From a virus, in IMG/VR virus record IMGVR_UViG_3300046673_000114, positions 1-64,000 of that record: DNA of 64,000 bases; one strand, written 5' to 3'. Under the pieces are notes generated by a model. It worked only from the letters and a program-made list of their open reading frames with translations, was not told the origin of the DNA and ran no database searches. The position numbers and the translations under genes were made by a program. This document shows positions 2,334-63,926 of this stretch, in pieces. Each line of letters begins with the position of its first letter. Within the stretch, counting starts at the first letter, position 1.

Positions 2334-2840
2334 ATGACTATTAGTAAAAGCACTGCGTCCGGTTTTCTAAATGGGCGTTTTACTCGATTCTTCGTCGATA
2401 CGAGCGGTTCAAATACCGGCGTGCCGTCGTGGACAATAGTCGGCGGTGAGTTGACCGGCAAGTGGACAATCGACCCACAGCTCGAGGATTATACAACCAA
2501 AGACGCAGACGCAATCGTTTACTACCCAACCCGATATAAGTGGAACGGCAGTTTTGATACAAATTATCTAGACGACGACACTGGTCAAGAGATGTGCCGA
2601 GACGTTATTCTCTCGGTAGGGCAGTCCGCACCAATCGGTAAAGCACCCGGCCCAGTTGTAAGAGTTGGTTGGAGAATTCAAGAGGATATACAGGGCGTTA
2701 CGCCTTCGACGCAAGCACATATGGTCGGACTCGTAGCGCTGAAAGTCGATTACCAGATGGACGACGCTAAGATGGGTAAAATGACGATTACCTTCACCGG
2801 CAGCGGCGCAATCGACCTCGCGACAGACCCGGGTACATAA
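2334..2840 (+). CDS. Major tail (tube) protein
   Basis: 168 residues with an AGGAGA ribosome binding site 7 to 12 bases upstream. Pattern and position match phage tail tube subunits: after the terminator and before the chaperone pair. The protein is beta-rich with WTIVGGEL, KWTIDPQLEDY and a C-terminal DDAKMGKMTITFTGSG strand. Tube subunits polymerise as hexameric rings around the tape measure. It should be one of the most abundant virion proteins. Confidence 0.7.
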   Translation: MTISKSTASGFLNGRFTRFFVDTSGSNTGVPSWTIVGGELTGKWTIDPQLEDYTTKDADAIVYYPTRYKWNGSFDTNYLDDDTGQEMCRDVILSVGQSAPIGKAPGPVVRVGWRIQEDIQGVTPSTQAHMVGLVALKVDYQMDDAKMGKMTITFTGSGAIDLATDPGT

Positions 2841-2857: not shown

Positions 2858-3256
2858 GTGACTGTAACATATACAAACAACTCAGTTCAAGCGATTAACA
2901 CGACGTGGAACTCAGACGCGACGCTCGTGGGGCTTACACCAACACTAACAAACGCGTGCCACACCGGCGGCAGCGCGGGTGATAGCTTCACTAACACAGG
3001 TCGCGAGTTTATCTATATCACGAATGGCGCGTCTTCAGAAGCGCTTACCGTGACGGTAAACGACCAATCGGCCTGCGACCACGGATTCGACCACAATGTT
3101 ATCGCAAACATCGCACCGAACACGGGGCGGATGCTCGGCCCATTCCCGGTTAACTGGTTTACGGCTACAGCGTTAGTCACGTATACCGGCGATGTAACGG
3201 GAACCCCTGAAATAAGCGTAATACAACTACCGCAAACCTCACCATTCCCCGAGTGA
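2858..3256 (+). CDS. Virion structural protein, beta-rich (tail decoration?)
   Basis: 132 residues with GTG start, six bases after a strong GGTGGTGA site at 2844-2851. The sequence is Thr/Asn-rich beta and contains GREFIYITNG, ALTVTVNDQSACDHG and MLGPFPVNWF. A small protein with this NG...VTV...GPFP pattern recurs in many tailed phages near the tail tube gene. It may be a tube decoration domain encoded separately. Expression coupled to the tube gene fits. Exact role unknown. Confidence 0.5.
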   Translation: MTVTYTNNSVQAINTTWNSDATLVGLTPTLTNACHTGGSAGDSFTNTGREFIYITNGASSEALTVTVNDQSACDHGFDHNVIANIAPNTGRMLGPFPVNWFTATALVTYTGDVTGTPEISVIQLPQTSPFPE

Positions 3257-3346
3257 GCTAAAACGAAGCGCGCACGAGTGACAGAAAGTGTCTCGATGAG
3301 TGCGCGTGAGTCTTTCTTGTTACCCAATAGGAGGTACAAAAAGAAA

Positions 3347-3799
3347 ATGAAGTTAAAGAATCCGCAACGCGGCTTTATCGAATTAGACATAGATAAAGAT
3401 AGAGAGTTTCTAGACTTACCAGAAGACGAACCGATATATCTAAAATACACTTATAATGCAATCTCATTAGCTGACCGTCAGTTAAAGAAAGCAAGCGGCG
3501 CTAGTATGATGCTACTCTTAACTAATCCGAGGTCGATAACGACCGACGACTTACGAATCCTACTCGCTGAAGGGTTACGGCATCAATTTCCGGGTATCTC
3601 TATCGACGTATGTGGCGATATTCTCGAGCACGAGAAATTCTTTAAGATACTCCCGAAGATTATCGAGGCCGCTAGTATCATTATGGAAGAGTGGTTCGAT
3701 GGCGACGCAGCAGCGGATATTAAAAATATGCGCGTGCGTGCAGTTGCCGTAAGTGGTAAGGAAGACCCCGCTGAAGCGGTGGGGGAACCAAAAAACTAG
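3347..3799 (+). CDS. Tail assembly chaperone G (short frameshift-partner product)
   Basis: 150 residues from ATG 3347, preceded by AGGAGGT at 3329-3335; a reading from 3278 is open but lacks a good site. The protein has LKYTYNAISLADRQL and a helical C-terminal part, ending in acidic EAVGEPKN. This fits gpG-type chaperones, which bind the tape measure during tail assembly. The last codons CCA AAA AAC contain the heptamer A_AAA_AAC directly before TAG, so a fraction of ribosomes should shift -1 into the following frame. Context is tail tube, G/GT, tape measure. Confidence 0.7.
   Translation: MKLKNPQRGFIELDIDKDREFLDLPEDEPIYLKYTYNAISLADRQLKKASGASMMLLLTNPRSITTDDLRILLAEGLRHQFPGISIDVCGDILEHEKFFKILPKIIEAASIIMEEWFDGDAAADIKNMRVRAVAVSGKEDPAEAVGEPKN
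3790..3796 (+). promoter_or_regulatory. Programmed -1 frameshift site A_AAA_AAC
   Basis: The zero frame reads CCA AAA AAC TAG, giving the canonical X_XXY_YYZ slippery heptamer immediately before the stop. The -1 frame is closed by TGA at 3772-3774, so the shift must happen between 3775 and 3799. This heptamer is the only perfect candidate in that interval. Confidence 0.75.
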
Positions 3800-4326
3800 A
3801 ATACGACTTTAAAGCGCTACTAAAGATAGCTACGGGGCCGCTAAACCTAACTCCCGAGCAGTTTTGGGAGTTATGCCCGTTTGAGTTTCAGCTACTCTAT
3901 GATGGCTACGAGTTTCGAAGAAGAGAAACCGAATATCGTACCGCGTGGGCGTTAGCGAACGTACTCAATGCGTGGAAAGGTAAAGACGATAAGGCGATAA
4001 AAGTCTCTACGTTGCTACCGTGGGCGAAAGAAGACGAATTAGAGCGCGAAGAAAACTTAGACCGTGAGGAAATAAAGCGTCGTAAGAAATCGCTTAAATC
4101 ACGTAAATCTAGTAAACCTCGAGATTTACCTAAACAAAAAAGCATCGACGAATTAGTTGATACATATCTCATAACGGCCGGTAAGAAAAAGGAAGACCTA
4201 ACACCGGAAGAACTCGCAGAAATTCGCGTGAATGCGATAAATCAATCAGTCGCGAATGAAGTAGACGCGCCGGGTCTTAGACTCTTTAGAAAAGCGCCGA
4301 AGGAATGGTGTAACTTTCCCGATTAG
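3796..4326 (+). CDS. Tail assembly chaperone T domain (made only as GT frameshift fusion)
   Basis: In the -1 frame after the slip, an open segment of 176 codons runs to TAG at 4324-4326. Its beginning encodes LTPEQFWELCPFEFQLLYDG, then YEFRRRETEYRTAWALANVL, a textbook gpT pattern (L-T-P-x-x-F-W-x-L-x-P-x-E-x-x-x-L). No ATG, GTG or TTG occurs in frame before 4012, so this conserved part cannot be made without a frameshift. The rest is highly charged and helical. The long fusion normally recruits the tape measure and tail tube subunits and is absent from the virion. Confidence 0.75.
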   Translation, partial: LEYDFKALLKIATGPLNLTPEQFWELCPFEFQLLYDGYEFRRRETEYRTAWALANVLNAWKGKDDKAIKVSTLLPWAKEDELEREENLDREEIKRRKKSLKSRKSSKPRDLPKQKSIDELVDTYLITAGKKKEDLTPEELAEIRVNAINQSVANEVDAPGLRLFRKAPKEWCNFPD

Positions 4327-4333
4327 GTGAAAC

Positions 4334-4654
4334 GTGGTAAAGAAAGCTAAAGCGGTAAAACACGCCAAAGCACACGCTAAAGCACACGCAACCGCGAGTA
4401 AAACCGCTAAAGCACATCATAAGACTACGGAAGCGGCACACCACAAAACCACAACGAAAACACACCATAAGACGACCGTAGAAGCACACCCACAAACAAA
4501 GACAAAAGCGAGCCATCTATCAAAAAAATCGGGAGACACATCGACGAAACCGACGCTTCACGTTAAAATAAAGGTACAGAAACAGAAGAAACGCGCACCG
4601 ACGAGCTTCGTCGCGAAAACAACGGCGCAAGCACGGCACATAGCTAAGTTTTAA
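4334..4654 (+). CDS. Lys/Ala/His/Thr-rich low-complexity basic protein
   Basis: 106 residues with GTG start after AGGTGA at 4325-4330. The first two thirds are built of AKAHAKAH- and HHKTT-type repeats. Composition resembles histone H1-like tails but with unusual His content, which could bind nucleic acid or metal. It lies between the chaperone pair and the tape measure, normally an empty junction. I recognise no family. Codon use matches its neighbours. Confidence 0.55.
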   Translation: MVKKAKAVKHAKAHAKAHATASKTAKAHHKTTEAAHHKTTTKTHHKTTVEAHPQTKTKASHLSKKSGDTSTKPTLHVKIKVQKQKKRAPTSFVAKTTAQARHIAKF

Positions 4655-4666
4655 AGAAAGGTAAAC

Positions 4667-7600
4667 ATGGCAAGTCTCGGCGAATTGATGGTCATTATCA
4701 CCGGCAACGCTGATGGTTTAAAGGCCGCGTTAGCCGAAGGTAGCGAGTCGACAGAAGCGTTCGGCGGCGAAATGGACGCGGCTGGCGCTAGTGCAACTGG
4801 TTTCGCTGCGGGTACTGGTGAAGCAGAAGCGTCGGCAACTGGTATGGCTGCCGGTATGGATGATGCGACCGCGAGTGCAGGAGAGCTAGAAGGTGGTTTA
4901 GGCGACGCTGCGGTAGCTGGTGGCGCTGCTGCTGGCGGATTAAAAGACACAGAAGCGGCAGCTACCGACGCGAAAGCGGGAATGAGCGACGCAGCTACCG
5001 AAGCTGGTGGCCTAGGTAGTGCGCTTACAAGCGCGGGTACGTTAGGTGCAGCAGGTATAGGTATCGCCACCGTTGCCGTTGCGGCGTTCGCTATTAAGTC
5101 CGGTGAAACCGTTGATAATGCTTATTCTCAGATGGGAAAAGCAACTGGCTTACAGGGTACTCAACTTCAATCACTTGAGACGCAGTGGGGTAACGTTTAT
5201 GCGAACGTTCCTGCAAGCGCGAGCACCGTAGCGACGGTTATTGATAAAGTAAATAACTCGCTTGGATTACAGGGTGACGCGTTAGGAAAAGCAACGCAAG
5301 ATATTATTGATTATAGTATTGCGACCGGAACCGACGCCACTAGCGATACCGACTCTTTTACGACCGGCTTAACAGAAGCGAATCGTGGGCTCCAAGCGAT
5401 GCACGAGCCCCTTATGACGACCGCGCAGTTATCTGATATGTCTACCGTAGCGTTTCAGAAGACCGGAAAGGGAATCCAAGATTGGGGGCCGGCGTTCGAT
5501 AAAGCTACCGCGTCGATGACTGCGATGGGAATGTCTATTCCTCAGCAAGTCGCGGCTCTTTCTGCGTTCTCACAAGCTGGAATACCCGCTAGACAGTTAA
5601 CTTCTTTATTACAGGGAATCGGCCCCGCCGCCGATAAAGCGGGAGAGAGTCAACAGGCGTTTTGGCAACACTTACTCGAAGATGGAAAGACGGGTGTTTA
5701 TACTCAAGATGAGCTTAAGCTTCTCGGCAAGAACCAAGATAACTTCACCGCAGCGGTTAAGTCGGGGACTATCACTAATCAGGCGTATATAAGCTCTCTT
5801 CAGAATAGCGGTGGTGCGACTGAAAAAGCCGCCGAATCAAACGAGACGTTTGGCGAAGCGTTAACCGAGCTTGAAAATAAGTTAACATTAGCGTTTGCCC
5901 CGCTTGGGACTACTATACTTACCATATTAAAGAACTTCATCGTCGCGTTAACGCCGGTAATTAGTTTTATTGGTCTTTTAGCGAAAGGCTTCGCGGCTCT
6001 ACCTATGCCAATACAAGCGGGTATGCTCGCTATAGGGCTTATAGCCGGTGGTGTCGCTGCTGCCGGACTCGCGCTTAAAATGTTTAATATTAATATTGGA
6101 GATATTATTACGAGCATCACGAAGCTAAAAGGTGCAGGTCTTAGCGATATAACTAATCAACTTAAAGAATTTGTTGGTTTAGGTGGTAGTGGTGCGGCTA
6201 AAGGCGTAGAGGCCGAAGCAGAGAGCGCCGTTGGCAGTGCAAGCTCGAAAAGACCGTGTCCGATAGACCCCGCGTGTTTTGATAAGTGTACTCAGAACGC
6301 GAAAGGCACGACGAGCGAACTAGAGAATATGCAGAATAAGGGGCAGGGCTTCGATAATCTTCTTCAAGACGCTACAGGAAAAACGTCGAATCTCGGTGAT
6401 GTTATAGGTGACGCGTCTGGAGAAACGGGAGAGCTTGCCGCCGGTGCAGGTGACGTTGGCGAAGGATTAGCCGCCGCCGGTGAAGGTGGGGGGATTCTAA
6501 GCGGTATAATGGGTGCTCTTCCGGGGCCGCTCGCGGGAATTCTCGGTAGCGTAGGCGGAATAGGTGAAGGACTACTTGGTGGTGCCGGTGCGGCAGGGGG
6601 ACTAACGGGTGGCTTAGGTGCTGCTGTAGCAGCGTCAGGGCCGTTAATACCAATAACCGGCGCTGTAGCTCTTGGTTTAGGTACAATGGCCGCTACGTCT
6701 GGAACGTTTAGAGGTATGCTCGGCGGTGCGGCTACTGCTGCTGGCGGCGTTATGACTCAAGTGCAGGGCATAGCTGGCGCGCTGATGAGCGGTAACTTCT
6801 CACAAGCAGGTCAATTACTTCAACAGGGATTTCAAGGCGCGATAGACTCACTTAAGAACTTCGATTTCGGTGAGTGGGCCGCGCAGATGATTCAGTCGAT
6901 TAAAGAATCCGTTGGTAATATCGGCGGAATGATTCTTAACGGGCTTTCTAGCTTATCTAACATAGCCGATACGATAATGAACTGGCTAAACGGCATTGAT
7001 TGGAACAGCGTCGTAGATGGTCTTGTAAAAGCAATCACCGGCTTATTCGGCGGTGGTGGCGGTGGCGGTGGCAAGTCTGCTACGACTTCAGTAAGTACCG
7101 GAATGAATAAATCACTCGTAGACGGCGCGACACAAGCAGCGCCTACGGTTTTAATGAAACTCGTGGGGGCGTTGGGGGGTCTCGCTGTTGCGTTATTATC
7201 GATATTCCCGAAGATAGCGATGGCACTTGGTCAGGCGATTCTTAATTATTTAGTAACGCTCGATTGGGGAAGCATCGCGAATCAGCTATGGAGTGCGATA
7301 CAGGGGGCTTTAGGAACGTTAGGCACGTGGGTGTGGGGTTTGCTCGTGCAGGTTCCGGGTCTTCTATGGCAGGGATTCACTTCAGCTCTAGGAACGTTAG
7401 GCACGTGGTTATGGGGACTGCTTACACCGATTCCGGGCGAATTATGGAACGCTTTCGTTAGCGCTATTGGAACGTTTGGAACATGGTTATGGGGTCTACT
7501 TTCACCGATTCCGGGTGAGTTATGGAATTCGGTAACGACACAGAACTGGGGACAGATAGGGCAAAACATTCTAACAGGCGTTGTAAGTATCGGTGGTAGC

Positions 7601-8143
7601 GTTTTAAGCGCCATTACGGGTCAAGATTGGGGGCAGATAGGGCAGAATATCCTAAACGGCATCACGAGTTTAGGTGGACAGATGGGAAGCGCAATATCTG
7701 GTGCCGTAACGAGCGCGCTTTCGGGCGCGAATATCACGTTTACTATCCCGATTATTAATAAAACAGTCTCGTTTAACTTAGCCGAGGGTGCGTATATCGC
7801 AGCCCGTTCGGGCGGCGTTTTAGCGGTTATCGGTGAAGGTGGCGAAGATGAATACGTTATTCCCGCTTCGAAGATGGGCGACCCGACGGCTATATCGGGT
7901 CTACCGAGATTAGCAGGCGGAGCGCTAGTCACTGGGAGCGTTGGTAACACGAACGTTTCAAACGTTATGAGATTAAGCGCGGCTACACCGAGCACGAGCG
8001 CACAACAGAGCGGTGGCGATATGCACATTCATTTCGATGGCCCAATTCATACGGTATCTGTGCAAGAAGCGCGACAGTATGCGAAAATTGTCGGCAATGA
8101 ATTCGATAGCTATCGACGTCGGAAAGGGCAGATGAGAGGTTAA
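4667..8143 (+). CDS. Tail tape measure protein
   Basis: 1158 residues with AAAGAAAGG just upstream. The N-terminal part is Ala/Gly-rich and helical. The middle holds hydrophobic helical segments around residues 415-475 and a Cys cluster near residue 530 (RPCPIDPACFDKC). Gly-rich linkers follow, then three 26-residue Trp-rich tandem repeats (7312-7545). The C-terminal part has a VIGEGGEDEYVIP segment, common at tape measure C-termini. Length, position after the G/GT pair and composition all fit. By the usual 1.5 angstrom per residue the tail would be about 170 nm. Confidence 0.85.
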   Translation: MASLGELMVIITGNADGLKAALAEGSESTEAFGGEMDAAGASATGFAAGTGEAEASATGMAAGMDDATASAGELEGGLGDAAVAGGAAAGGLKDTEAAATDAKAGMSDAATEAGGLGSALTSAGTLGAAGIGIATVAVAAFAIKSGETVDNAYSQMGKATGLQGTQLQSLETQWGNVYANVPASASTVATVIDKVNNSLGLQGDALGKATQDIIDYSIATGTDATSDTDSFTTGLTEANRGLQAMHEPLMTTAQLSDMSTVAFQKTGKGIQDWGPAFDKATASMTAMGMSIPQQVAALSAFSQAGIPARQLTSLLQGIGPAADKAGESQQAFWQHLLEDGKTGVYTQDELKLLGKNQDNFTAAVKSGTITNQAYISSLQNSGGATEKAAESNETFGEALTELENKLTLAFAPLGTTILTILKNFIVALTPVISFIGLLAKGFAALPMPIQAGMLAIGLIAGGVAAAGLALKMFNINIGDIITSITKLKGAGLSDITNQLKEFVGLGGSGAAKGVEAEAESAVGSASSKRPCPIDPACFDKCTQNAKGTTSELENMQNKGQGFDNLLQDATGKTSNLGDVIGDASGETGELAAGAGDVGEGLAAAGEGGGILSGIMGALPGPLAGILGSVGGIGEGLLGGAGAAGGLTGGLGAAVAASGPLIPITGAVALGLGTMAATSGTFRGMLGGAATAAGGVMTQVQGIAGALMSGNFSQAGQLLQQGFQGAIDSLKNFDFGEWAAQMIQSIKESVGNIGGMILNGLSSLSNIADTIMNWLNGIDWNSVVDGLVKAITGLFGGGGGGGGKSATTSVSTGMNKSLVDGATQAAPTVLMKLVGALGGLAVALLSIFPKIAMALGQAILNYLVTLDWGSIANQLWSAIQGALGTLGTWVWGLLVQVPGLLWQGFTSALGTLGTWLWGLLTPIPGELWNAFVSAIGTFGTWLWGLLSPIPGELWNSVTTQNWGQIGQNILTGVVSIGGSVLSAITGQDWGQIGQNILNGITSLGGQMGSAISGAVTSALSGANITFTIPIINKTVSFNLAEGAYIAARSGGVLAVIGEGGEDEYVIPASKMGDPTAISGLPRLAGGALVTGSVGNTNVSNVMRLSAATPSTSAQQSGGDMHIHFDGPIHTVSVQEARQYAKIVGNEFDSYRRRKGQMRG
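7312..7545 (+). repeat. Three 78-bp tandem repeats in the tape measure gene
   Basis: Units start at 7312, 7390 and 7468, each encoding a 26-residue LGTxGTWxWGLLxxxPGxLW module. Spacing is exactly 78 bp. Copies are similar at DNA level, implying internal duplication that lengthens the tail in steps. Confidence 0.8.
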
Positions 8144-27330: not shown

Positions 27331-27362
27331 GTCAATTACCCACGCTAAAGCGATGGGCTTGT
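27331..27362 (-). mobile_element. tnpB 1 right end with guide-RNA (omega/reRNA) 3' hairpin
   Basis: CCCACGC-TAAA-GCG-A-TGGG folds into a hairpin at 27339-27357, just past the tnpB stop, and ends in AATTGAC on the minus strand. In IS200/IS605 elements the 3' end of tnpB and the right end encode the guide RNA. The GCTAAAGC core also occurs next to tnpB 3 and at 28505. Confidence 0.6.
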
Positions 27363-28454
27363 ATCTCCTTCAACTTTTAGGGATACAATAGGCTGATTGA
27401 CGGCAGCCCTCGAAGCGATGTTCTTTGCCGCATTTATATCGGCGTTTTCAGTGTATCCACACGCAACGCAAACAAACTCGCTCTGTGTCTTGCGGTTCTT
27501 CTTGTCAATGTGTCCACACTCTGAACACTGCTTCGACGTGTTTCGCGGGTCGATTAGATGGACGGGAACGCCGTTGAGTTTCGCTTTGTAGTCTACGAAC
27601 CATCTCAACTGGCCGAACGCCCACTTACCGAGTCTACCACGCTGTGCCTTTCTAACCGTTGTCCGAGAGCGTATGTGCGTCAAGTCCTCTAATACAATCG
27701 CTCTCTTTGTGTCTTTGGCTATTCCAACAATAACTTTTGAAATACAATGATTGAGATTCGTCTTAAACTTCCGTTCTTTGCCGCTCGTCCGCTTCAGATG
27801 CCGCTTCGCGCTCTTGGTTCCTTTCGACTGAAGTGCTGACTTTAGCTTCGTGTAGCGCGTTCTAACAGCATCGGCCTTATCGCCACTGAAGTGCTGACCG
27901 TCGCTTGTGGTTGCGATATTGACAATTCCCAAGTCTACACCTAAGTAGCCTTCCGCGTTGTATTCTGTCACCCCTTCAACTTCCACGACCACGCAGAGAT
28001 AGAACGTTCCCTTTTGAAGTATCAAGTCGGCTTGTCCTCTGACTCGTCGCTGTTCAAGTTGGGCGTAGTCCCCGATTGAGAACGGTATGAGCTTTCGACC
28101 GTCGAGAGTCAAGATTGAAACCGAATCGAGAGACTTGAACGATAATATTCTTTGGTCATAGACAACAGCGCTGTGTGGTTTGAACGTGTGTAGCTCTTGC
28201 CGGTGTCCTTTGCCACGGTATGACTCTGAGACTTTGGCTATCGCTCTGACTGCTAACTGTGCCGATAAACCGTAGGTATCTCGAATATAACGATAATGCT
28301 GCTTTTGAAGCGTCCGTTTACCGAATACTCCTTCTTGATAGGAGACTGACGAAACGTAGTTGCACGCTTCGTTGAACCGTTCCATTGTGGTTAAGAGGGC
28401 AGCATATTGCTCGTCGGTCGGATTGAGCTTTGCTTTAACGGTTAGCAGCATCAT
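27345..28454 (-). CDS. tnpB: TnpB RNA-guided endonuclease (IS200/IS605 family) 1
   Basis: 369 residues. Conserved parts are visible: a helical N-terminal region, RuvC-I GYLGVDLGIVNIA, RuvC-II AIVLEDLTHIR, a four-Cys zinc finger (KQCSECGH and FVCVACGY) and RuvC-III NADINAAKNI. All acidic catalytic residues (D, E, D) are present, so it is probably active. TnpB uses RNA from the element's right end to cut DNA and retain or spread the element. No tnpA is adjacent. It faces its neighbours, and the element seems to interrupt a promoter region. Confidence 0.9.
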   Translation of the reverse strand: MMLLTVKAKLNPTDEQYAALLTTMERFNEACNYVSSVSYQEGVFGKRTLQKQHYRYIRDTYGLSAQLAVRAIAKVSESYRGKGHRQELHTFKPHSAVVYDQRILSFKSLDSVSILTLDGRKLIPFSIGDYAQLEQRRVRGQADLILQKGTFYLCVVVEVEGVTEYNAEGYLGVDLGIVNIATTSDGQHFSGDKADAVRTRYTKLKSALQSKGTKSAKRHLKRTSGKERKFKTNLNHCISKVIVGIAKDTKRAIVLEDLTHIRSRTTVRKAQRGRLGKWAFGQLRWFVDYKAKLNGVPVHLIDPRNTSKQCSECGHIDKKNRKTQSEFVCVACGYTENADINAAKNIASRAAVNQPIVSLKVEGDTSPSL

Positions 28455-29360: not shown

Positions 29361-29903
29361 ATGGATATACGGGCAGAACGAATAAAAAATGGATTATGTA
29401 TGTATTGCGGGGTCGAACCTGCGCGTAAAGGAGTAAAGACTTGCGTAGTATGTTACAATAAATTTAAAGCTACACGCGAATCTTTAAAATCTAGAGGAAT
29501 ATGTCCTAGATGTCAAAAAAACCCTATAAAAAAGGGGCGCGGCACCTGCGAAGTATGTCTTAAACGGCAATTAGATATACGAAACCGTGATGCGAAAAAA
29601 GAGAGATACGATTCTCTTTACGGTCTTACTAACGGTCAATTACGCTGTACAAATTGTGGTTTACCATTTTATGAGGTATTACAAGTACATCATTTAGGAA
29701 ATAATGGTAAGAAACATAGAGAGAAGATTCATAAAGGTACATCGATACATCGTTTTATTATAAAACAAAACTTCCCAACCGACTATCTCGTTCTCTGCTC
29801 TAACTGTCACGATTTTTGGCATAAAGAAGGGCAACTTCCAACAAAGGAAGAATTAACTAAACTATATCGTGTAGCTCTAAAATTTTGTGAGGCTTCACAA
29901 TGA
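29361..29903 (+). CDS. HNH endonuclease, viral homing type (copy 1)
   Basis: 180 residues. N-terminal Cys pairs (CMYCG, CVVCY, CPRCQ, CEVCL) form zinc fingers that would bind DNA. The C-terminal part has RCTNCGLPFYEVLQVHH, then HRFIIKQNFPTDYLVLCSNC, the HNH nuclease plan with its own zinc pair. It is a paralog of genes at 39613, 43808, 47064, 47981 and 51904. AT-rich codons stand out from the neighbouring genes, indicating recent entry. It is placed between two small genes of one operon. Confidence 0.8.
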   Translation: MDIRAERIKNGLCMYCGVEPARKGVKTCVVCYNKFKATRESLKSRGICPRCQKNPIKKGRGTCEVCLKRQLDIRNRDAKKERYDSLYGLTNGQLRCTNCGLPFYEVLQVHHLGNNGKKHREKIHKGTSIHRFIIKQNFPTDYLVLCSNCHDFWHKEGQLPTKEELTKLYRVALKFCEASQ

Positions 29904-31905: not shown

Positions 31906-32997
31906 TCAAGAACACGCTACATTCGGCTGATTGACAGGCAGCCTACTCACATTGGATATACCATCATGAGCGATATTGCGAGAAGCGTTAAGGTCGGCAT
32001 TGAGCGAGAACCCGCACTTACGGCAGCGGTAGCTAGAGCCATCCCTATTCCTTTTATAGACGTGGCCGCAGTTAGAACACTTCTGCGATGTGTAACGAGC
32101 ATCGACAAGCAAAACGTGCTTACCGACGGCTTCTGCTTTATACCGCAGGAACTGTTCAAGCTGGTAGAACGCCCACGAGTTAAGAAGACCGTTGAACTTT
32201 CTACCACGCCGCTTTTGTACCCTAACCTTACTCAAGTCTTCGAGCGCATAGACACCGAAGGGCAACGAGACAAGCTCCTTACTAATGCAGTGGTTAACGT
32301 CAGTCACAAACCGAGTTTCCCGTTTACTCATACGCTTAAGCTTGCGTTTAGCGGAACGGGTGCCTTTGGACTGAAGCTCTGCACGAAGGTGTGCATACTT
32401 TCCTCGCACGTTCTTGACCTGCTTTCCGTTGAAAAAAGAGTTGTTAGATGTAACAGCGATGTTTTTGATTCCGCGGTCGATACCGAGGACTGCACCGTTA
32501 TTAGCCGCTGGCACATTAGCAGACTCCATCGAGACGTGCATAAAAAAGCCGTTGCGATACGAGATTGTAACGCTTTTCAACATCCATCCCAAATACTGCG
32601 AATAGCACGACGGAACCGAGAAACACGCTTTAACGCGCCCCGCAACGGTGGCGATGGTAGCAAATCCTTCGTGGACTTTGATACGAGCAACTCTGTGGTT
32701 ATACCGCAGAGCCGAACGCGGTTTCTTTTGGGGCAACGTTTTGCACTTATCCCGTTTCAGCGATTCGCAAGCGCAGTCTCTCGCACATTGCACGAGCGAA
32801 GACGGAAGCGGAGAAGTAGCACGAAATTGGTGATACGTGCCTTTGTGGTTCTCGACTTTATTCCACGAGTGGTTCTCAAAGCCCCACTGTGCCGAAGCGT
32901 TGAACGCTTTGGTGTATTCGTCCATCGTGGTAAGGAGTTTTTGAGTATCCTCATCGGCACAATGCAGCTTAAGCGTAATAGTCCGTATCACGTTCAT
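31906..32997 (-). CDS. tnpB: TnpB RNA-guided endonuclease (IS200/IS605 family) 2
   Basis: 363 residues with RuvC-I VLGIDRGIKNIAV, RuvC-II VYALEDLSKV, zinc Cys pairs (KCSNCGH and YRCRKCGF) and RuvC-III LNADLNASRNI. Catalytic D, E, D are intact. It shares the block RAELQSKGTRSAKRKLKR with tnpB 1 (KSALQSKGTKSAKRHLKR), so the two are closer to each other than to tnpB 3. No tnpA is present. It lies against the direction of the tiny-gene operon it interrupts. The plus-strand reading of this span (402 codons) is a shadow. Confidence 0.9.
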   Translation of the reverse strand: MNVIRTITLKLHCADEDTQKLLTTMDEYTKAFNASAQWGFENHSWNKVENHKGTYHQFRATSPLPSSLVQCARDCACESLKRDKCKTLPQKKPRSALRYNHRVARIKVHEGFATIATVAGRVKACFSVPSCYSQYLGWMLKSVTISYRNGFFMHVSMESANVPAANNGAVLGIDRGIKNIAVTSNNSFFNGKQVKNVRGKYAHLRAELQSKGTRSAKRKLKRMSKRETRFVTDVNHCISKELVSLPFGVYALEDLSKVRVQKRRGRKFNGLLNSWAFYQLEQFLRYKAEAVGKHVLLVDARYTSQKCSNCGHVYKRNRDGSSYRCRKCGFSLNADLNASRNIAHDGISNVSRLPVNQPNVACS

Positions 32998-35746: not shown

Positions 35747-36889
35747 ATGAGTTATATCCTAGACCTAGCAAAAAGTTCGTCACCAATCATTAAAGACGAG
35801 CATATTCTAGAATCGAATTATATTCCAGATACAATCGTCGGTCGACATAAGCAGCAAGAAGAGATGTGGCCGCCACTTTCTCATCTTATGAAAGGTCAAC
35901 CAGCGCATCATTTACTCTTAATGGGGCATAACGGTTCCGGTAAAACGGTTGTCATTCGTAGCGTTCTTCGGGACCTCGAGACGGTAACCGACTTTCAGAC
36001 GATATATCTCCCAAGCGTGCGCGACCCTAAGCCTAACTCGGTAATGCGTCGACTTCTAGAAGCATCAGGCGTGGCGCTCCCACCGAAAGACGAGTCGGTA
36101 GCGAGTCTAATAAATCTTCTTGATAAGCATTTATCCACCATAGATAAGCCCATTATATTCATATTCGACGAAATAGACTTCTTTATCTCAAAGGATATGT
36201 GGACGGTTCTTAATTATATCGTGCGCGAAAGAGATATGGCGACCGTCGTAGGCACGACGAACGACCCGAGGCTTCTAAGTAAGATACCGGATAAAAAGTT
36301 AATCTCGGCATATAGACCCTCAACCGTAACATTTCCGCCGTATAACACAGACGAACTACGAGAAATACTCGAGTCGAGAGCTGAGAAAGCGCTTTATGCG
36401 AACGTATTAGAAGCTGAGGTTATACCTCGATGTGCTGCGTTGGCGGTTAGGTTAAATAACGGTGATGCTCGTTACGCTATCTCATTGCTTTCGAAGGCCG
36501 CCGAGATATGTCATACAAACCTTCAAAAGAAAGTTACTAGCGAAGATGTTATACAAGCGGTGCAAGAGCTAGAGAACGAAGAATATGATAAAATAGCCTC
36601 GTTATTATCGGAGCGGCATAAGAACATTCTACGCATATTAATTATTAAAGATAACATACGACGAGCAGAACTACAGGAAGTCTACGAAACTAATAATTCC
36701 TATGATGTTATTTCCGATGTGTGGTTCGCGAGAGAGCTAAGAACGTTAGAAGAATTTGGTCTTATAATCCGATGGTCTAAAGGTAAGGGTCGCGGACTAG
36801 GCGTTACGTGGTTTGTTTCGTTACACGAGGACATTGATAAAGAGAAACTTAAAGAAGTTTTATACCGTGATTTAGGTGGCGGGGCGTGA
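35747..36889 (+). CDS. orc1/cdc6: Orc1/Cdc6 replication initiator
   Basis: 380 residues. AAA+ ATPase with Walker A GHNGSGKT (60-67), Walker B FIFDEID (138-144), a sensor-1 strand TVVGTTNDP, and lid helices with NNGDARYAISLLSKAA (sensor-2 Arg). The C-terminal 100 residues form a winged helix (RHKNILRILIIKDNIRRAEL). These proteins bind origin boxes and load the MCM helicase in archaea. Viral copies usually recruit the host replisome. The gene is probably leaderless, and the right end of a tnpB element follows its stop after a few bases. Confidence 0.9.
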   Translation: MSYILDLAKSSSPIIKDEHILESNYIPDTIVGRHKQQEEMWPPLSHLMKGQPAHHLLLMGHNGSGKTVVIRSVLRDLETVTDFQTIYLPSVRDPKPNSVMRRLLEASGVALPPKDESVASLINLLDKHLSTIDKPIIFIFDEIDFFISKDMWTVLNYIVRERDMATVVGTTNDPRLLSKIPDKKLISAYRPSTVTFPPYNTDELREILESRAEKALYANVLEAEVIPRCAALAVRLNNGDARYAISLLSKAAEICHTNLQKKVTSEDVIQAVQELENEEYDKIASLLSERHKNILRILIIKDNIRRAELQEVYETNNSYDVISDVWFARELRTLEEFGLIIRWSKGKGRGLGVTWFVSLHEDIDKEKLKEVLYRDLGGGA

Positions 36890-36892
36890 CTT

Positions 36893-36921
36893 CTCCCCCA
36901 GCTAAAGCAGGGGGCTTCTAT
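36893..36921 (-). mobile_element. tnpB 3 right end with guide-RNA hairpin
   Basis: CCCCC-AGCTAAAGCA-GGGGG folds at 36895-36914, overlapping the tnpB 3 stop. Its GCTAAAGC core is shared with tnpB 1 and the orphan hairpin at 28505. Confidence 0.65.
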
Positions 36922-38020
36922 CGATTGAACGAACAGAGGCAAGCCCACCTCTGAGTATGTTGATTGCAGCGTTCTCATCGCGGTCAGCGACATAGCCGCA
37001 GTCACACGAATGTATGCGGTCTTTCAGTTCCTTCTTGACTATTTGACCACACCTGCTACATTCCTGAGTAGTATTCTTAGGATTCACCAGCACCACTATT
37101 GAACCAGCTTCCTCCGCTTTGTTCTGTGTTGCGTTAATGAATTGAGTCCACGCAGCGTCGCCTATCGATTTGGCGAGGTAGTGATTCTGCTGCATACCTT
37201 TGACGTTCAAATCTTCAAAGGCGATTATGCCGAATCTGTTAACGATTGCACGGCTCAGTTGATGCGCGAAGTCGTTTCGTCTGTTAGCTATCCGTTCGTG
37301 GATTCTTGACACCACCTTTCGGGCTTTCTTCCTTTGTGGTGCGCCTTTCGCTTGAGCTGAGAGTTTACGCTGCGCTTTCGCTAACGCTTTTTCATCGTGC
37401 CTAAAGAATCGTGGGTTCTCGACTTTCTCACCATTAGACAGCGTGGCAAACGACGTTAGTCCTACGTCTACCCCAACAACAGCCCCGTCTTTGAATGTTT
37501 GGGTCTTAGGTTCGTATTCTGTGGTGAAACAAGCAAACCACTTCCCCATAGAACGCTTGTTTATGTTCAGCCGTTTTATCACACCTTCAATCGGGCGATG
37601 CAACACTATCTTGACGTTTCCTATCTTTGACAGCATTAAATCATCTGCTTTAAGAGCGAATCCCATTTGTGGGTAGGTGAATGAATCATAGCGCCCTTTG
37701 CCTTTGAACCTCGGATAACCTGCTTCTTTCTCTCCTGCTTTGACACGTCTAAAGAACGCTTTGAAGGCTAAGTCCACACGTTGAGAGACTTCTTGTAGCA
37801 CTTGCGAATGAACGCTTGTCAGCTCCGGTCTATCACGCTTCCATATTGGTATCAACTTGTTCGTGTCATATCTGCCAAGTGTCACACCCTTTGACTCATA
37901 TGCGGTCTTTCGCGTGGCTAATACCTCATTATATACCCATCGGCACAACTCTAAGGTTTGATTCATCTTAGTTTCCTGTGCCTTTGTCGGATAGAGCCGA
38001 TAGCGATAGACCTTATGCAT
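36902..38020 (-). CDS. tnpB: TnpB RNA-guided endonuclease (IS200/IS605 family) 3
   Basis: 372 residues, the most canonical of the three. N-terminal YRYRLYPTKAQETKMNQTLE and the helix-turn-helix part with YPRFKGKGRYDSF are typical OrfB features. RuvC-I VGVDVGLTSFA, RuvC-II IIAFEDLNVKGM, a zinc finger (QECSRCGQ and CDCGYVADRD) and RuvC-III RDENAAINIL are intact. It is probably active as an RNA-guided nuclease. It is inserted directly after the orc1 stop and is a different lineage from copies 1 and 2. No tnpA is present. Confidence 0.9.
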   Translation of the reverse strand: MHKVYRYRLYPTKAQETKMNQTLELCRWVYNEVLATRKTAYESKGVTLGRYDTNKLIPIWKRDRPELTSVHSQVLQEVSQRVDLAFKAFFRRVKAGEKEAGYPRFKGKGRYDSFTYPQMGFALKADDLMLSKIGNVKIVLHRPIEGVIKRLNINKRSMGKWFACFTTEYEPKTQTFKDGAVVGVDVGLTSFATLSNGEKVENPRFFRHDEKALAKAQRKLSAQAKGAPQRKKARKVVSRIHERIANRRNDFAHQLSRAIVNRFGIIAFEDLNVKGMQQNHYLAKSIGDAAWTQFINATQNKAEEAGSIVVLVNPKNTTQECSRCGQIVKKELKDRIHSCDCGYVADRDENAAINILRGGLASVRSIDRSPLL

Positions 38021-39612: not shown

Positions 39613-40197
39613 CTACGGTTCACTTGTAGCCGCATCATCTTTATCGTGGGGACAAAAACCGTAGTGGCCTATTGAGGTGTTACAGTTATGACATAAAACA
39701 CGATAGCCACTCGGAAAGTTATTCTTCTTTAGCCACCTAAAGATTCCGTTTCCGCGGTAGCCTAGCTCATTTAGTTTAGCTCTATGTTTCGCACCACCGC
39801 CGTCTTTATGGTCTATCGCTAAAAATTGAATATGAGATTCGCCACAACACGCGCATCTTAGCGTACCGTTAGAATAATGAGAAAGAACCTCTTTTCTAAG
39901 TTTTTCTCTATGTTGTTGCTTTAATTCTTTATTATTTAATACGCGGCAGCTATTACAATAGTCCGTTGTATTACTTCTTATGCTTCTTGGTCTAAACTCT
40001 ACTCCACATCGCTTACATAGCTTTTGCGGTGGTTGGATTAAGTATGTATAACACTCGTCGCAATAATAAAGCGTGAAATGTGGCACAGCATTACCGTGTC
40101 TGGTAGTGGTAAAGATTGTACCACAACGTTTACATGGCTTAGGTTCTGTCCCTATGCGTCGCGATTGATTGTACTCAGCTACCTTACCTCGTTGCAT
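39613..40197 (-). CDS. HNH endonuclease, viral homing type (copy 2)
   Basis: 194 residues. Zinc pairs CKRCG (twice) and YCNSCR, then LRCACCGESHIQFLAIDHKD, GGGAKHRAKL and RVLCHNCNTSIGHYGFCPHD. The D-H-x-D/N-G-G-G-x-x-H-R core and the Cys pairs are those of this virus's HNH family. The only full-length minus-strand copy. It transcribes away from the replication genes. Confidence 0.85.
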   Translation of the reverse strand: MQRGKVAEYNQSRRIGTEPKPCKRCGTIFTTTRHGNAVPHFTLYYCDECYTYLIQPPQKLCKRCGVEFRPRSIRSNTTDYCNSCRVLNNKELKQQHREKLRKEVLSHYSNGTLRCACCGESHIQFLAIDHKDGGGAKHRAKLNELGYRGNGIFRWLKKNNFPSGYRVLCHNCNTSIGHYGFCPHDKDDAATSEP

Positions 40198-43496: not shown

Positions 43497-43808
43497 ATGA
43501 TTCACCCACGACCTAAACCACTATCGTCATATCCTGCTCACGAGAAAAACAGCCTAGAGCAGATACCGATATTAACCTATGAAGTAGGCGATTTGGCTAA
43601 GATGTTTGCTTATGCTCATCGCTATAGGTTGGTCGATAAAGAGAGAAGTAAAGGCTATAGAATCGAAGCGCGAATAGCCGCTTCTGATGTTATAGCTCAA
43701 ATGGTCGTGATGTGTGAGCGCGAAGGCTGGAATTTTTATGAAGTGAAGAAGCTCGGCGAGGAACGCTTTAGGGAGAAAATAGAGCGGCATAGGCTCTATA
43801 AAGAATAA
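43497..43808 (+). CDS. Helical protein, faintly MazG-like (103 aa)
   Basis: TAA of the previous gene touches its ATG. The part YEVGDLAKMFAYAHRYRL and IEARIAASDVIAQMVVMCER resembles the E-x-G-D-L-A-K and E-x-A-D helices of MazG-like NTP pyrophosphohydrolases, but the full E-E-x-x-E motif is not clear. It may be a nucleotide-pool enzyme or a diverged relative. Overlaps the next start by one base. Confidence 0.4.
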   Translation: MIHPRPKPLSSYPAHEKNSLEQIPILTYEVGDLAKMFAYAHRYRLVDKERSKGYRIEARIAASDVIAQMVVMCEREGWNFYEVKKLGEERFREKIERHRLYKE

Positions 43809-44374
43809 TGGCATACAAAGACCCCGAGAAGAAAAAGGAACGCGATAAAGCGTATCACATAGCGAATAGAGAAAAACGAAACGCGTATGCTCGGCAATGG
43901 CGTGAGAAAAATCGAGAGAAACTTTATATAACTCAAAAAGCGTGGCGAGATTCTCATAGAGAGCACATCTTACAAAATAAAAAGGAGTATTATCAGAAGA
44001 ACCGCGAGAAAATTCTAGAACGTGAAAAAGAGCGCTATAACGAGAAGCGGGGTAATCCGAAATATATCGCGAAGCATAGAGAGTACGGTCGTAAGCATCG
44101 TCAAAAAATACGCGATATAGTTATTGCGCACTACGGTGGCGATTCACCCCACTGTATGTGTTGCGGCGAAACAACTCTACAGTTCTTAACAGTGCATCAT
44201 ATTAATGGAGATGGTGCGGCCCATAGGCGCTCGATTGGTAATTCTGGTTTATATGAGTGGATTATAAAGCATAACTATCCTACGGGGTTAGAATTACAAT
44301 GTTGGAACTGTAATCTAGCAAGTTATCAGTATGGGATATGTCCTCATAAAATAAAAGAAGGCGATAAATTTTGA
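43808..44374 (+). CDS. HNH endonuclease, viral homing type (copy 3)
   Basis: 188 residues. Residues 1-100 are a Lys/Arg/Glu coiled segment with YARQWREKNREKLYITQKAW-type repeats. Then CMCCGETTLQFLTVHHINGD, GAAHRRSIG, and LELQCWNCNLASYQYGICPH. It overlaps the glycosyltransferase start by 4 bp. The charged repeat N-terminus replaces the zinc fingers of copies 1 and 2. Confidence 0.85.
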   Translation: MAYKDPEKKKERDKAYHIANREKRNAYARQWREKNREKLYITQKAWRDSHREHILQNKKEYYQKNREKILEREKERYNEKRGNPKYIAKHREYGRKHRQKIRDIVIAHYGGDSPHCMCCGETTLQFLTVHHINGDGAAHRRSIGNSGLYEWIIKHNYPTGLELQCWNCNLASYQYGICPHKIKEGDKF

Positions 44375-46682: not shown

Positions 46683-47061
46683 ACCGAATCTAGTTACTAT
46701 CCCCGCTGAAGACCAAATCTATGAGCTAATTAAGCTCATTAAAGATAGTCGCGGTAATAAAGTTGATTTTCTAATGGGGCCTCTATGGCGCGAAGATACG
46801 ATAACATATGATGGAAAGCTCGTATCGCGTATCTATCATTTAATAAACCACCATATTTACATTGTGCAGACTCTCGGCGTAGCGGGTAAGAATGTTTACC
46901 TACGTGTCTCAGGCCGTGGAAACGTGAATGAGATTACAAAAGAAGAAGCAATAGAAATAATAGGTCTACGTAAAGGCTACATTGAAGACAGCGACTTAAG
47001 GGATATTGGGCCGAATGATGACCCCGAAATACCATATCTAACATCGACATGCGACTGGTGA
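46669..47061 (+). CDS. Hypothetical protein (130 aa)
   Basis: Overlaps the dehydrogenase by 14 bp. Begins MEVIEPNLVTIPAEDQIYEL and has a beta-rich middle with IYIVQTLGVAGKNVYLRVSG. No family recognised. Coupled to the glycan genes by overlap. Confidence 0.5.
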   Translation: MEVIEPNLVTIPAEDQIYELIKLIKDSRGNKVDFLMGPLWREDTITYDGKLVSRIYHLINHHIYIVQTLGVAGKNVYLRVSGRGNVNEITKEEAIEIIGLRKGYIEDSDLRDIGPNDDPEIPYLTSTCDW

Positions 47062-47063
47062 AA

Positions 47064-47645
47064 ATGACGGAAAGGGTTTGTTCTAATTGTCATAAGCCGT
47101 TCGACGAACCTCACGAGTTTAAGCAGTGTGATAGGTGCCGCAAAATAGGGCGCGAAACTAAGCTCAAATGGTGGCACGAAAAAAGAAGAACGGCGGCAGG
47201 TCCCGTGTGCTCAATATGTCTTAAACCACACGACGGAAAATACAAAACTTGTGAGCGATGCCTTAGCTATAAGCGAAAATTTCGTAAAGAGCATCCAGAA
47301 GCCGACAATGAATGGTATCTAGCGCACCGGGACGAACTGCTTAAGAAATCTAAAGAATACCGTGAACAGACCCGCTTGATGGTTTTGACACATTATTCTA
47401 ACGGGGAAACTCCGCGCTGCGCTTGTTGTAACGAACAAAATATTGAGTTTCTTTGTATAGACCATATAAACGGAGGGGGGCGTCAGCATAGAAAACAGCT
47501 AATAAAGAGCGGGATAACCCCGTATCTTTGGCTTGTTAGGAATGATTTTCCAGAAGGTTATCGGGTTCTTTGTTGGAACTGTAACTCATCACTCGGACTT
47601 TACGGATATTGTCCCCACGATAAGGTGCCAAACTGTGATTTTTAA
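47064..47645 (+). CDS. HNH endonuclease, viral homing type (copy 4)
   Basis: 193 residues from ATG 47064 after CTGGTGAAA; ATG 47049 in the same frame is possible. Zinc pairs CSNCHKPFD, CDRCRK, CSICLKPHDGKYKTCERC, then CACCNEQNIEFLCIDHINGG, RQHRKQL and RVLCWNCNSSLGLYGYCPHD. Strong paralogy to 47981, which shares the C-x-x-C-x-K-x-H-D-G-K-x-K-T-C start. Confidence 0.85.
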   Translation: MTERVCSNCHKPFDEPHEFKQCDRCRKIGRETKLKWWHEKRRTAAGPVCSICLKPHDGKYKTCERCLSYKRKFRKEHPEADNEWYLAHRDELLKKSKEYREQTRLMVLTHYSNGETPRCACCNEQNIEFLCIDHINGGGRQHRKQLIKSGITPYLWLVRNDFPEGYRVLCWNCNSSLGLYGYCPHDKVPNCDF

Positions 47646-47844: not shown

Positions 47845-47981
47845 ATAGAATAAAGTGTGAGTGTGAGGCGAGCCACAATTTTAATTATATTTACGTTAGT
47901 GGTTTTACGGTAGATGATAAAAAGTCGGGCATCCGGCAGCATTGTGAAAAATGCGTACGCGCACAAAAAGATGAGGATTAA
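47841..47981 (+). CDS. Tiny zinc-binding protein (46 aa)
   Basis: GTG start overlapping the previous stop. KCECEASHNFNYIY and RQHCEKCVRAQ form two Cys pairs. Its TAA overlaps the next HNH ATG. Confidence 0.45.
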   Translation: MNRIKCECEASHNFNYIYVSGFTVDDKKSGIRQHCEKCVRAQKDED

Positions 47982-48502
47982 TGAATATCTGTTCTCAGTG
48001 TCATAAGTCACACGACGGTAAGTTTAAAACGTGCGAGCCGTGTTTAGACCACACTCGTAAATGGCGAAAGGAGAATCTTAGAAGAAATCGAGAGATAGGT
48101 CTTACGTATTATTATGCACATCAAAAAGAAATATTAGAGAAAGGCCACATATACCGTCAAGTAAATCGAGAGAAAGAAAACGCACGTCAGCAACGGTGGC
48201 GCAAAGAGAATCCAGAACGATTAAAAGAACAGAGACAAGATAAACGATTTATGGTGCTACAGTACTATTCGCGTAGTGATATACCCTTCTGCGACTGCTG
48301 CGGCGAAAAAACATTAGAGTTTCTATGTATCGACCATATAAGTGGAAATGGTAATGAGCATAGGCGCGAAACTAAAAAAGCGCCGATTTATGCTTGGTTA
48401 ATTCAGCATAACTTTCCAGACGGATTTCGAGTTTTATGTCATAATTGTAATCTATCATTAGGTTTTTATGGCTATTGTCCGCATAAGAGTAAAGAGGTAT
48501 AA
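47981..48502 (+). CDS. HNH endonuclease, viral homing type (copy 5)
   Basis: 173 residues. CSQCHKSHDGKFKTCEPC, an Arg/Glu-rich linker, CDCCGEKTLEFLCIDHISGN, NEHRRETK and RVLCHNCNLSLGFYGYCPHK. It lies only about 340 bp after copy 4, so the two may come from local duplication and both cut near here. Confidence 0.85.
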   Translation: MNICSQCHKSHDGKFKTCEPCLDHTRKWRKENLRRNREIGLTYYYAHQKEILEKGHIYRQVNREKENARQQRWRKENPERLKEQRQDKRFMVLQYYSRSDIPFCDCCGEKTLEFLCIDHISGNGNEHRRETKKAPIYAWLIQHNFPDGFRVLCHNCNLSLGFYGYCPHKSKEV

Positions 48503-51518: not shown

Positions 51519-51907
51519 GAAAATGTACTAAATGTAGTAATATGATTAATGCCGACGATAGGCATAAGCTATGTCCTCGTTGTCGTGAAAAGAATAAAGA
51601 AATAAAGCTTAGAGTAAGAAAAGGCCGCGAAGAAAGAGGCGTCTGTACGCAATGCGGTAAAAAAAGAGATAGTGAGTTGTACCTCTTATGCGCTAAATGT
51701 CGTGATAAAAAAAGTCATAGTCCCTCTCGCGTAAAGCGTGGCGTTAATAAAACAAATCCAGTTCGCGTGTATCCTACACACATTAACCTAAGTAAAGCGT
51801 ATATCATCAAAGTAGACGAGGTGGCCGCGAGAGCGCACCTAACTAGAACGGATATAATGGAAACGCTCATCTCGAAATATATAAATCGCGTTGAGGTCTG
51901 GAAGTGA
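51515..51907 (+). CDS. Zinc-finger plus RHH-like regulator
   Basis: 130 residues. CTKCSNMI, LCPRCRE, VCTQCGKK and LCAKCRD are four Cys pairs in the same style as the HNH N-termini. The C-terminal 45 residues (PTHINLSKAYIIKVDEVAAR, then AHLTRTDIMETLISKYI) look like RHH. It may have arisen by fusing an HNH-type DNA-binding half to an RHH domain. Confidence 0.55.
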   Translation: MRKCTKCSNMINADDRHKLCPRCREKNKEIKLRVRKGREERGVCTQCGKKRDSELYLLCAKCRDKKSHSPSRVKRGVNKTNPVRVYPTHINLSKAYIIKVDEVAARAHLTRTDIMETLISKYINRVEVWK

Positions 51908-52566
51908 GTTCTAATTCGCAAGAATATAATCAACGGTGGCGGGAAGCAAATAAAGAGGCCATACGCGACTCAAACCAAAAATATCGTTTAGCTCACGCAG
52001 AAAAGATTTCTAAGCAAATTAAGATACGGTATCAACGGCTTCGCGATAGTGGGTTATGTGTCAGGTGCACTAATCCGCGCGAAAAACATAAGCAGTATTG
52101 TGATAGCTGTCTTAAAAAGCATAACGCCGAAGTTAAAAAATGTCGAGAAAAACATATTAAAAGTGGATTATGTCGCGCTTGCGGCCTCCCGCGCGAACAA
52201 GAAAATAAAGTACATTGTAATAAATGTCTTATGAAGTATCGCGACGATACAAGAAAGAATCAGGAACGATTTAGACACACCGCGCTTTCTTTTTTAACGG
52301 ACGGAAAAATGTGCTGTAGTAACTGCGGGTTGCCTATCTATCAAACTCTTGAGTTCGACCATATAAATAACGACGGGGCTGAGCATAGACGACGAGAAGC
52401 TGGTAGGTGGTTCAGTTTTCCTAAATGGCTTATCGATAATAACTTTCCTAATGGCTTTCAGGTTCTTTGTGCGAATTGTCATAGTTTTAAAACAAAAGGG
52501 GGTAAGTTACCAACTAAAAATGAACTTATCGCGGCGTATGAAACCGCGATTAAGTTTTTGGAGTAA
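51904..52566 (+). CDS. HNH endonuclease, viral homing type (copy 6)
   Basis: 220 residues. Basic N-terminus, zinc pairs CVRCTNPR, YCDSCLK, CRACGLPR and CNKCLMK, then MCCSNCGLPIYQTLEFDHIN, AEHRRREAG and FQVLCANCHSFKTKGGKLPT. C-terminal part is closest to copy 1 (KEGQLPTKEEL versus KGGKLPTKNEL). Overlaps the regulator by 4 bp. Confidence 0.85.
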   Translation: MSSNSQEYNQRWREANKEAIRDSNQKYRLAHAEKISKQIKIRYQRLRDSGLCVRCTNPREKHKQYCDSCLKKHNAEVKKCREKHIKSGLCRACGLPREQENKVHCNKCLMKYRDDTRKNQERFRHTALSFLTDGKMCCSNCGLPIYQTLEFDHINNDGAEHRRREAGRWFSFPKWLIDNNFPNGFQVLCANCHSFKTKGGKLPTKNELIAAYETAIKFLE

Positions 52567-54676: not shown

Positions 54677-55272
54677 TGAAATCAATAAAAAAAGAAAAGA
54701 GACTAACTAAAAAAGAGCAGCTTCAAAAAAGAAGATATGATTTTTGGAGACTTATGTCTCACGGCGCAACTCTAGCCGACGCCGTTAAGATGATTTCAGA
54801 GAAATACGGTGTCGGTAAAGCCGTTTTATATAGCGATTGGGCTAAACGAGAGGAATGGGGTGTCGTCGAGGAACCAGAGAAAAATAGAATAGTAAAAGAT
54901 GGTCTGTTTTCATTACAAGAAACAAGACGTTATCTTTGGAATCTTATTAACGCTTCACCAGAACAGCTTAACGAAGACGGGGTATTAGTCGACTCTCGAG
55001 GCGTGCCGATGTGGCCGTTTGAATTACCAGATGTTAAGTTAAGAGCTACTACGATAGCGAAGATTATAGAAACAGATTTCGCGGTTATCCGAATGACGCA
55101 AAGCATAGGCATCGTTCCGCAAAAGGGAATGACTATTTCTATGTTATCCGAAAACTCTGCTGAAATAGAAAAGAACCTAGACGCGTATTGCGGTGACGAT
55201 GTAGAGCTAAAAAGAGCGGTATTAGTCGCACTCGATACGATGGCGAGGGGTGTAAGTGGCGAAGACTCCTAA
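54676..55272 (+). CDS. Terminase small subunit-like protein
   Basis: 198 residues from ATG 54676. DFWRLMSHGATLADAVKMIS then EKYGVGKAVLYSDWAKREEW is a helix-turn-helix like those of small terminases, which bind the packaging site. The C-terminal part is helical. It overlaps the large-subunit gene by 17 bp. Identification rests on the HTH plus this neighbour. Confidence 0.6.
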   Translation: MKSIKKEKRLTKKEQLQKRRYDFWRLMSHGATLADAVKMISEKYGVGKAVLYSDWAKREEWGVVEEPEKNRIVKDGLFSLQETRRYLWNLINASPEQLNEDGVLVDSRGVPMWPFELPDVKLRATTIAKIIETDFAVIRMTQSIGIVPQKGMTISMLSENSAEIEKNLDAYCGDDVELKRAVLVALDTMARGVSGEDS

Positions 55273-56134
55273 ATACACACTAAAGAAAAGACCGCGCGGT
55301 AGGCCGCGTAAAGAGAAACCGGCAGCGAAAGAGAAGAAAGAATACTCTACCGATGCAGTTCGTTATCTAAAGTATAAGATGGCCCCGGACGTGTGGGTAG
55401 AAGAAAACTATGATATAACGCTCGATTCGTGGCAGAAAGAAGCATTAAACACCCAATCGAATCGCCTACTACTTAATTGTTCAAGACAGGCGGGAAAATC
55501 GACCGTTGTTTCTCTATTAGCGCTACACCATGCGTTATTTACACCTAAAGCATTAGTCCTCGTCGTCTCACATACGGATATTCAAGCGAAAGAAACGTTT
55601 AAGAAAATAGCCGATAGCTTCCACGACCTAAAGACCGAATGGTATAAAAGCGAAGTAGACACCGTTTATGAGATTAGGTTTAACAATAAAAGTCGTATCA
55701 TAGCACGAACGGGACAACAACCAGATAGCTTACGAGGGTATAGTGGTGTTACGCTTTTAATCATCGACGAAGCTGCATCAGTTTTAGAAGAAAGTTATAT
55801 GGTTCTTAAACCAATGCTTGCCGTCTCGAAAGGAAAGGTAGTTTTGCTTTCTACGCCTAAAGGTAAACGAGGTTTCTTCTATGATGCGTATAAAGACGCG
55901 CACGAGAATAACCGAGAGAGCTGGCATTACTTAGAAATAAAAGCCGACGATTGTCCTAGAATCACGCAAGAATACTTACTAAGTGAAAAAGAGCGCAATC
56001 CCGATTGGGTATTCGAGCAAGAATACTATTGTGTCTTCATTTCGAATGTGAGCAACATTTTTCCAAACGTTGCCGACTTATTTATAGAAATGCCCCTAGA
56101 CGACCACTGGTCATTCGATTTAGACTTGGATTAA
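55256..56134 (+). CDS. Terminase large subunit, ATPase part only
   Basis: 292 residues, against about 420-550 in the family. The N-terminus carries an AT-hook-like GRPRKEK. Walker A is LNCSRQAGKST (around 73-83), Walker B LLIIDEAA (167-174), coupling motif LLSTPKGKRG (197-206). The frame ends at TAA shortly after YYCVFISNVSNIFPN, where the RNase-H-like nuclease domain should begin. A promoter and an HNH gene follow at once. The nuclease domain is either lost, encoded elsewhere, or separated by the insertion. It still should power DNA packaging if a nuclease partner exists. Confidence 0.8.
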   Translation: MAKTPKYTLKKRPRGRPRKEKPAAKEKKEYSTDAVRYLKYKMAPDVWVEENYDITLDSWQKEALNTQSNRLLLNCSRQAGKSTVVSLLALHHALFTPKALVLVVSHTDIQAKETFKKIADSFHDLKTEWYKSEVDTVYEIRFNNKSRIIARTGQQPDSLRGYSGVTLLIIDEAASVLEESYMVLKPMLAVSKGKVVLLSTPKGKRGFFYDAYKDAHENNRESWHYLEIKADDCPRITQEYLLSEKERNPDWVFEQEYYCVFISNVSNIFPNVADLFIEMPLDDHWSFDLDLD

Positions 56135-63815: not shown

Positions 63816-63926
63816 ATGGAAATTGGAATATATTTCATAAGCGGTATTCTAGCGATAGGACTTATAATTACTGAAACTCTTTTATTTATAGAACTAAAGC
63901 TTAAGAACCAAAAGAATGCCACGTAG
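63816..63926 (+). CDS. Single-pass membrane peptide (36 aa)
   Basis: ATG 63816 (or TTG 63798). MEIGIYFISGILAIGLIITE is one membrane helix with a Lys-rich tail. No family. Confidence 0.4.
   Translation: MEIGIYFISGILAIGLIITETLLFIELKLKNQKNAT

Follow-up and report, generated by a model that had tools for sequence, protein, structure and literature searches.

The window, which is the whole stretch of DNA that was analysed, covers positions 1 to 64,000 of a record of 80,483 bases from an uncultivated tailed virus. It holds a zero-frame gene, G, and an overlapping -1 frame that carries a second part, T, within a run of tail genes (Table 1). G is preceded by a Shine-Dalgarno-like GGAGGT at about 3331–3336, and its zero-frame ending reads CCA AAA AAC TAG (3788–3799). 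The -1 frame is closed on its 5′ side by a TGA and stays open from there until 4326. Read after a shift, the T part would span 3796–4323 and comprise 176 aa, beginning LEYDF. No ATG, GTG or TTG occurs in this frame before the TTG at 4012, some 70 residues after T begins. The initial annotation had described a -1 frame closed at 3772–3774, a canonical heptamer right before the zero-frame stop and a T part without a start codon at its beginning, and the letters bear out all three. It had delimited the feature as 3775–4326: the open -1 frame does begin with the codon at 3775, but the whole feature extends over 3347–4326.

Table 1. Coordinates of the G/T locus, its neighbours and further genes of the virus (window positions unless L011 is given).
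Feature	Position	Strand	Remarks
G, zero-frame gene, putative tail assembly chaperone	3347–3799	+	150 aa, ATG start, TAG stop
Slippery heptamer A_AAA_AAC, zero frame	3790–3796	+	context CC A_AAA_AAC TAG
Stop TAG of the zero frame, directly following the heptamer	3797–3799	+	position kept in all five lineages
-1 frame open region	3775–4326	+	T part, Phage_TAC_6
Probable major tail (tube) protein	2334–2840	+	PHROG 1407, E 0.0036, weak; order relative to tape measure
Small ORF between major tail protein and G	2858–3256		
Lys/His/Ala-rich small repetitive ORF between T and tape measure	4334–4654	+	106 aa
Tape measure protein	4667–8143	+	1158 aa; PHROG 991, E 1.2e-19; tblastn to staphylococcal tape measure proteins
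Cys/His-rich HNH-like proteins	29361–29903, 39613–40197 (-), 43808–44374, 47049–47645, 47981–48502, 51904–52566		
TnpB-like genes	27345–28454 (-), 31906–32997 (-), 36902–38020 (-); L011 17372–18472		two confirmed by NCBIfam

The T part matched the Pfam family PF09550 (Phage_TAC_6) above the curated cut-off (E 1.8e-6, residues 5–36 of T), and the family is matched by T in five lineages, namely all three family members plus L022 and L023. Because the match lies at the very N-terminus of T, translation from an internal start at 4012 would give a protein without this domain. G weakly matched a tail protein family, PHROG 2115 (E 2.4e-4), as do all three family members. The G/T pair sits between the gene of the probable major tail protein, which is conserved in all relatives, and the tape measure gene. 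A small ORF intervenes on each side, and a tail completion/terminator protein is encoded further upstream of the probable major tail protein. By analogy, the place and layout of these genes is that of lambda G/GT, the two small intervening ORFs aside. Pfam and PHROG profile searches gave no family match for the repetitive ORF behind T; an ORF of similarly biased composition follows T at the same place in L023 (8414–8701). Searching the phage records with G and T returned no useful relatives, and searching the genome collection with G returned no relative. The proposed assignment of the pair as tail chaperones G and GT is supported by the TAC_6 match, the weak tail PHROG match of G, the gene order, the conserved slip site and stop, and the lack of an alternative start.

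We compared the locus with that of related viruses, as the initial annotation had proposed. Three contigs from other metagenome datasets (L002–L004) carry the same site at 97.4–99.99% nucleotide identity over 8–10 kb. Four relatives are diverged. Two of them, L005 (73% identity in G) and L008 (66% identity in G), retain A_AAA_AAC_TAG exactly. The other two, L022 and L023, came from a search with the major tail protein; their G genes end in GGA AAA AAC TGA and GCA AAA AAG TAG, respectively, each with the T frame at -1. The heptamer is thus A_AAA_AAC in three of the four diverged relatives and A_AAA_AAG in L023, and a canonical heptamer with an adjacent stop is kept in all four. The zero-frame stop, as TAG or TGA, lies directly 3′ of the heptamer in 5/5 lineages. 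After the slip, L023 would read Val first, and the other four lineages Leu. An ordinary start codon for T in related viruses had been named as a possible refutation; no ATG, GTG or TTG occurs near the junction in any lineage. We aligned the window with L005 and L008, its two closest relatives, over 1022 columns; at 11 nt, AAAAAACTAGA exceeds every other invariant run, the second longest measuring 8. This heptamer-stop unit comes straight after the variable tail of G, where the G proteins barely agree. The pN/pS ratio is 0.26–0.40 in both frames: purifying selection acts on both.

We counted how often such a site occurs. The bare 7-mer AAAAAAC is not enriched in the window (17 observed versus 21.5 expected). 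Among 15,313 zero-frame codon positions in plus-strand ORFs of at least 100 aa, A_AAA_AAC occurs in frame twice and any heptamer of the form X_XXY_YYZ 57 times. Over an overlap of roughly 8 codons, these in-frame rates therefore give a chance of about 0.1% for A_AAA_AAC and about 3% for any canonical heptamer. The copy at 3790 is the sole heptamer that both lies no more than 10 codons from a stop and leads into a long -1 frame, here of 176 codons. A chance origin is untenable because the site is conserved in four diverged relatives, and this conservation is the decisive evidence that the slip site exceeds chance.

Candidate stimulatory elements fared less well. Folds of 64 and 114 nt downstream of the heptamer in three lineages were no better than shuffles (z from -1.4 to +0.6), leaving a downstream RNA structure unsupported. 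A hairpin at 3851–3870, 54 nt downstream of the heptamer, contains one compensatory pair and breaks in L008; its covariation does not go beyond shuffles, and we rejected it as a stimulator. We also rejected an internal Shine-Dalgarno sequence upstream of the heptamer: by inspection, the G-rich stretch of the window, Shine-Dalgarno-like at best, is absent in the relatives.

From the anatomy of the site, its conservation, the selection on both frames, the family matches and the gene order, we infer that ribosomes undergo a programmed -1 frameshift here, as in lambda G/GT, with a probability of about 0.93. The majority of ribosomes would translate G and terminate at the TAG at 3797. A minority would slip one base backward on A_AAA_AAC, with tRNA-Lys and tRNA-Asn re-pairing in tandem on AAA AAA. 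After the slip these ribosomes would read CTA GAA TAC and onward, yielding a GT fusion (...PKN-LEYDF...) of 326 aa as a minor product. By analogy with lambda (PMC5009743), G may coat the tape measure protein, and GT, via its TAC_6 T domain, may bring tail-tube subunits to the tape measure protein. If G and GT have these roles in tail assembly, the G:GT ratio set by the slip would matter, as the analogy predicts. We also considered that in archaeal viruses the adjacent stop may belong to the signal, such that slow termination on the archaeal ribosome would raise slippage without an RNA structure. All five lineages, as well as Haloarcula californiae tailed virus 2 (HCTV-2), have the stop directly behind the heptamer; we regard this idea as rather doubtful. 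The conserved placement of the stop is the only point here that may repay work.

The main rival is transcriptional slippage, in which the polymerase gains or drops an A in the A6/A7 run and some mRNAs encode the fusion in one frame. The site does offer an A6 run (A7 in L008), and the fusion protein would be nearly identical, but the run is short. Moreover, L023 has A_AAA_AAG and L022 has GGAAAAAAC, both with the phase of the heptamer exact and a stop right behind it; slippage in codon phase predicts that these are kept, whereas slippage of the polymerase does not require it. Archaeal G/GT sites also include G_GGA_AAC and G_GGA_AAG, which have no long homopolymers (PMC5009743). Slippage of the polymerase thus explains the conserved phase and adjacent stop less well than ribosomal slippage, and we consider it very unlikely.

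Alternatively, T may be a gene of its own. Its translation would then begin at an internal or non-standard start codon, or ribosomes would reinitiate once they had terminated at the end of G; compact viral genomes commonly use such stop-coupled reinitiation. Yet the first ATG, GTG or TTG lies at 4012 (a TTG) in the window and at 7503 in L005, past TAC_6 or at its distal edge; none of these codons is found close to the junction in any lineage, and a separate gene gives no reason for the conserved A run. This makes a separate T gene highly improbable. It is scarcely credible that an assembly or sequencing error split one ordinary gene, or that the gene has decayed. Homopolymers are the commonest places for indel errors and the site is a homopolymer, but L002–L004 have the same sequence and four diverged relatives the same arrangement. 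The near-identical contigs in three other metagenome datasets therefore rule out an assembly error, and the purifying selection on both parts speaks against decay.

How does the programmed frameshift compare with known systems? In lambda the heptamer is G_GGA_AAG and the stop lies further downstream, whereas the window has A_AAA_AAC and an adjacent stop. Lambda G/GT resembles the window in gene order, in its two overlapping ORFs and in its -1 shift, and lambda T is made only as a fusion (PMC5009743). The G/GT frameshift is conserved among tailed phages (PMC5009743), and it was published in 2013 for the archaeal viruses HVTV-1, HCTV-1, HCTV-2 and HCTV-5 (PMC5009743; PMC8211752). For Hardycor1 a frameshift has been predicted at G GGA AAT (PMC7911831), and for the HF1 group a +1 shift has been discussed (PMC7230728).

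The closest counterpart is the cultured virus HCTV-2, whose slip heptamer is given as A_AAA_AAC (PMC5009743). In its record (KC292028), the annotated tail assembly chaperone gene closes with GC A_AAA_AAC TGA; the annotation has two chaperone CDS with a common start, one of them joined to give the long form. HCTV-2 thus shares with the window the heptamer, the stop immediately behind it and a frameshift pair between tail tube and tape measure. It differs in that the G proteins have no detectable sequence similarity and in lacking the small ORF that separates T from the tape measure gene in the window; its host is haloarchaeal, whereas the virus of the window is not obviously so. Because HCTV-2 matches in heptamer, stop placement and gene order, the present case is already known in kind. 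The suggestion that an archaeal case was newly worth documenting therefore does not stand, since HVTV-1, HCTV-1/-2/-5 and Hardycor1 had already been reported or annotated. Outside tail genes, the alpha-L-fucosidase gene fucA1 of Saccharolobus solfataricus has a demonstrated -1 shift at A_AAA_AAT (PMC8211752). It is like the window in having an A-run heptamer and a -1 shift, made in fucA1 by archaeal ribosomes, and unlike it in encoding a cellular enzyme rather than a tail chaperone; most Sulfolobales relatives have the gene at full length (PMC8211752). What the window adds is an example of the G/GT frameshift, clean and well conserved, from a virus that is probably archaeal and not obviously haloarchaeal. 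One relative adds a natural variant of the slip site, with A_AAA_AAG in place of A_AAA_AAC. Both are useful for annotating archaeal tailed viruses and leave the general picture unchanged. The changed site (L023 8004–8013 versus window 3790–3799) is a dnaX-type heptamer and keeps the adjacent stop.

The virus had been labelled archaeal-type, and one Orc1/Cdc6 gene (35747–36889) supports the label, passing TIGR02928 with 195.3 bits versus a cut-off of 181.3. Searched against plasmids, its product found only archaeal proteins among the matches listed, the best being from Methanothermobacter tenebrarum (34%); against the phage collection, it gave a single match, a Haloferax virus. No MCM, PCNA or DnaB was found in the virus record, the two large relatives had no Cdc6 match, and the genome collection searched with Cdc6 yielded no relative. 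TnpB was rejected as a host marker because both archaea and bacteria occur among its best plasmid matches. Judged by the one Orc1/Cdc6 gene, an archaeal host is likely.

Several further features of the record were observed. The large terminase appears to be encoded in two pieces: the ATPase part lies at 55256–56134 of the window (PHROG 7579, E 2.5e-45), and a separate ORF about 7.8 kb beyond it, at 63916–64671 of the record (L011 1917–2672), has a weak Terminase_6C nuclease match. Directly after the ATPase part lies a possible HNH-like gene (56171–56791); a search for Rfam introns found none in the window. At least six similar Cys/His-rich proteins have an HNH-like C-terminal motif, e.g. CxCCGE...LxxHHINGDGAxHR. 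No confident Pfam match was found for them; on visual inspection, they resemble free-standing homing endonucleases of one family. One of the TnpB-like genes adjoins a TnpA-like ORF (L011 16971–17366).
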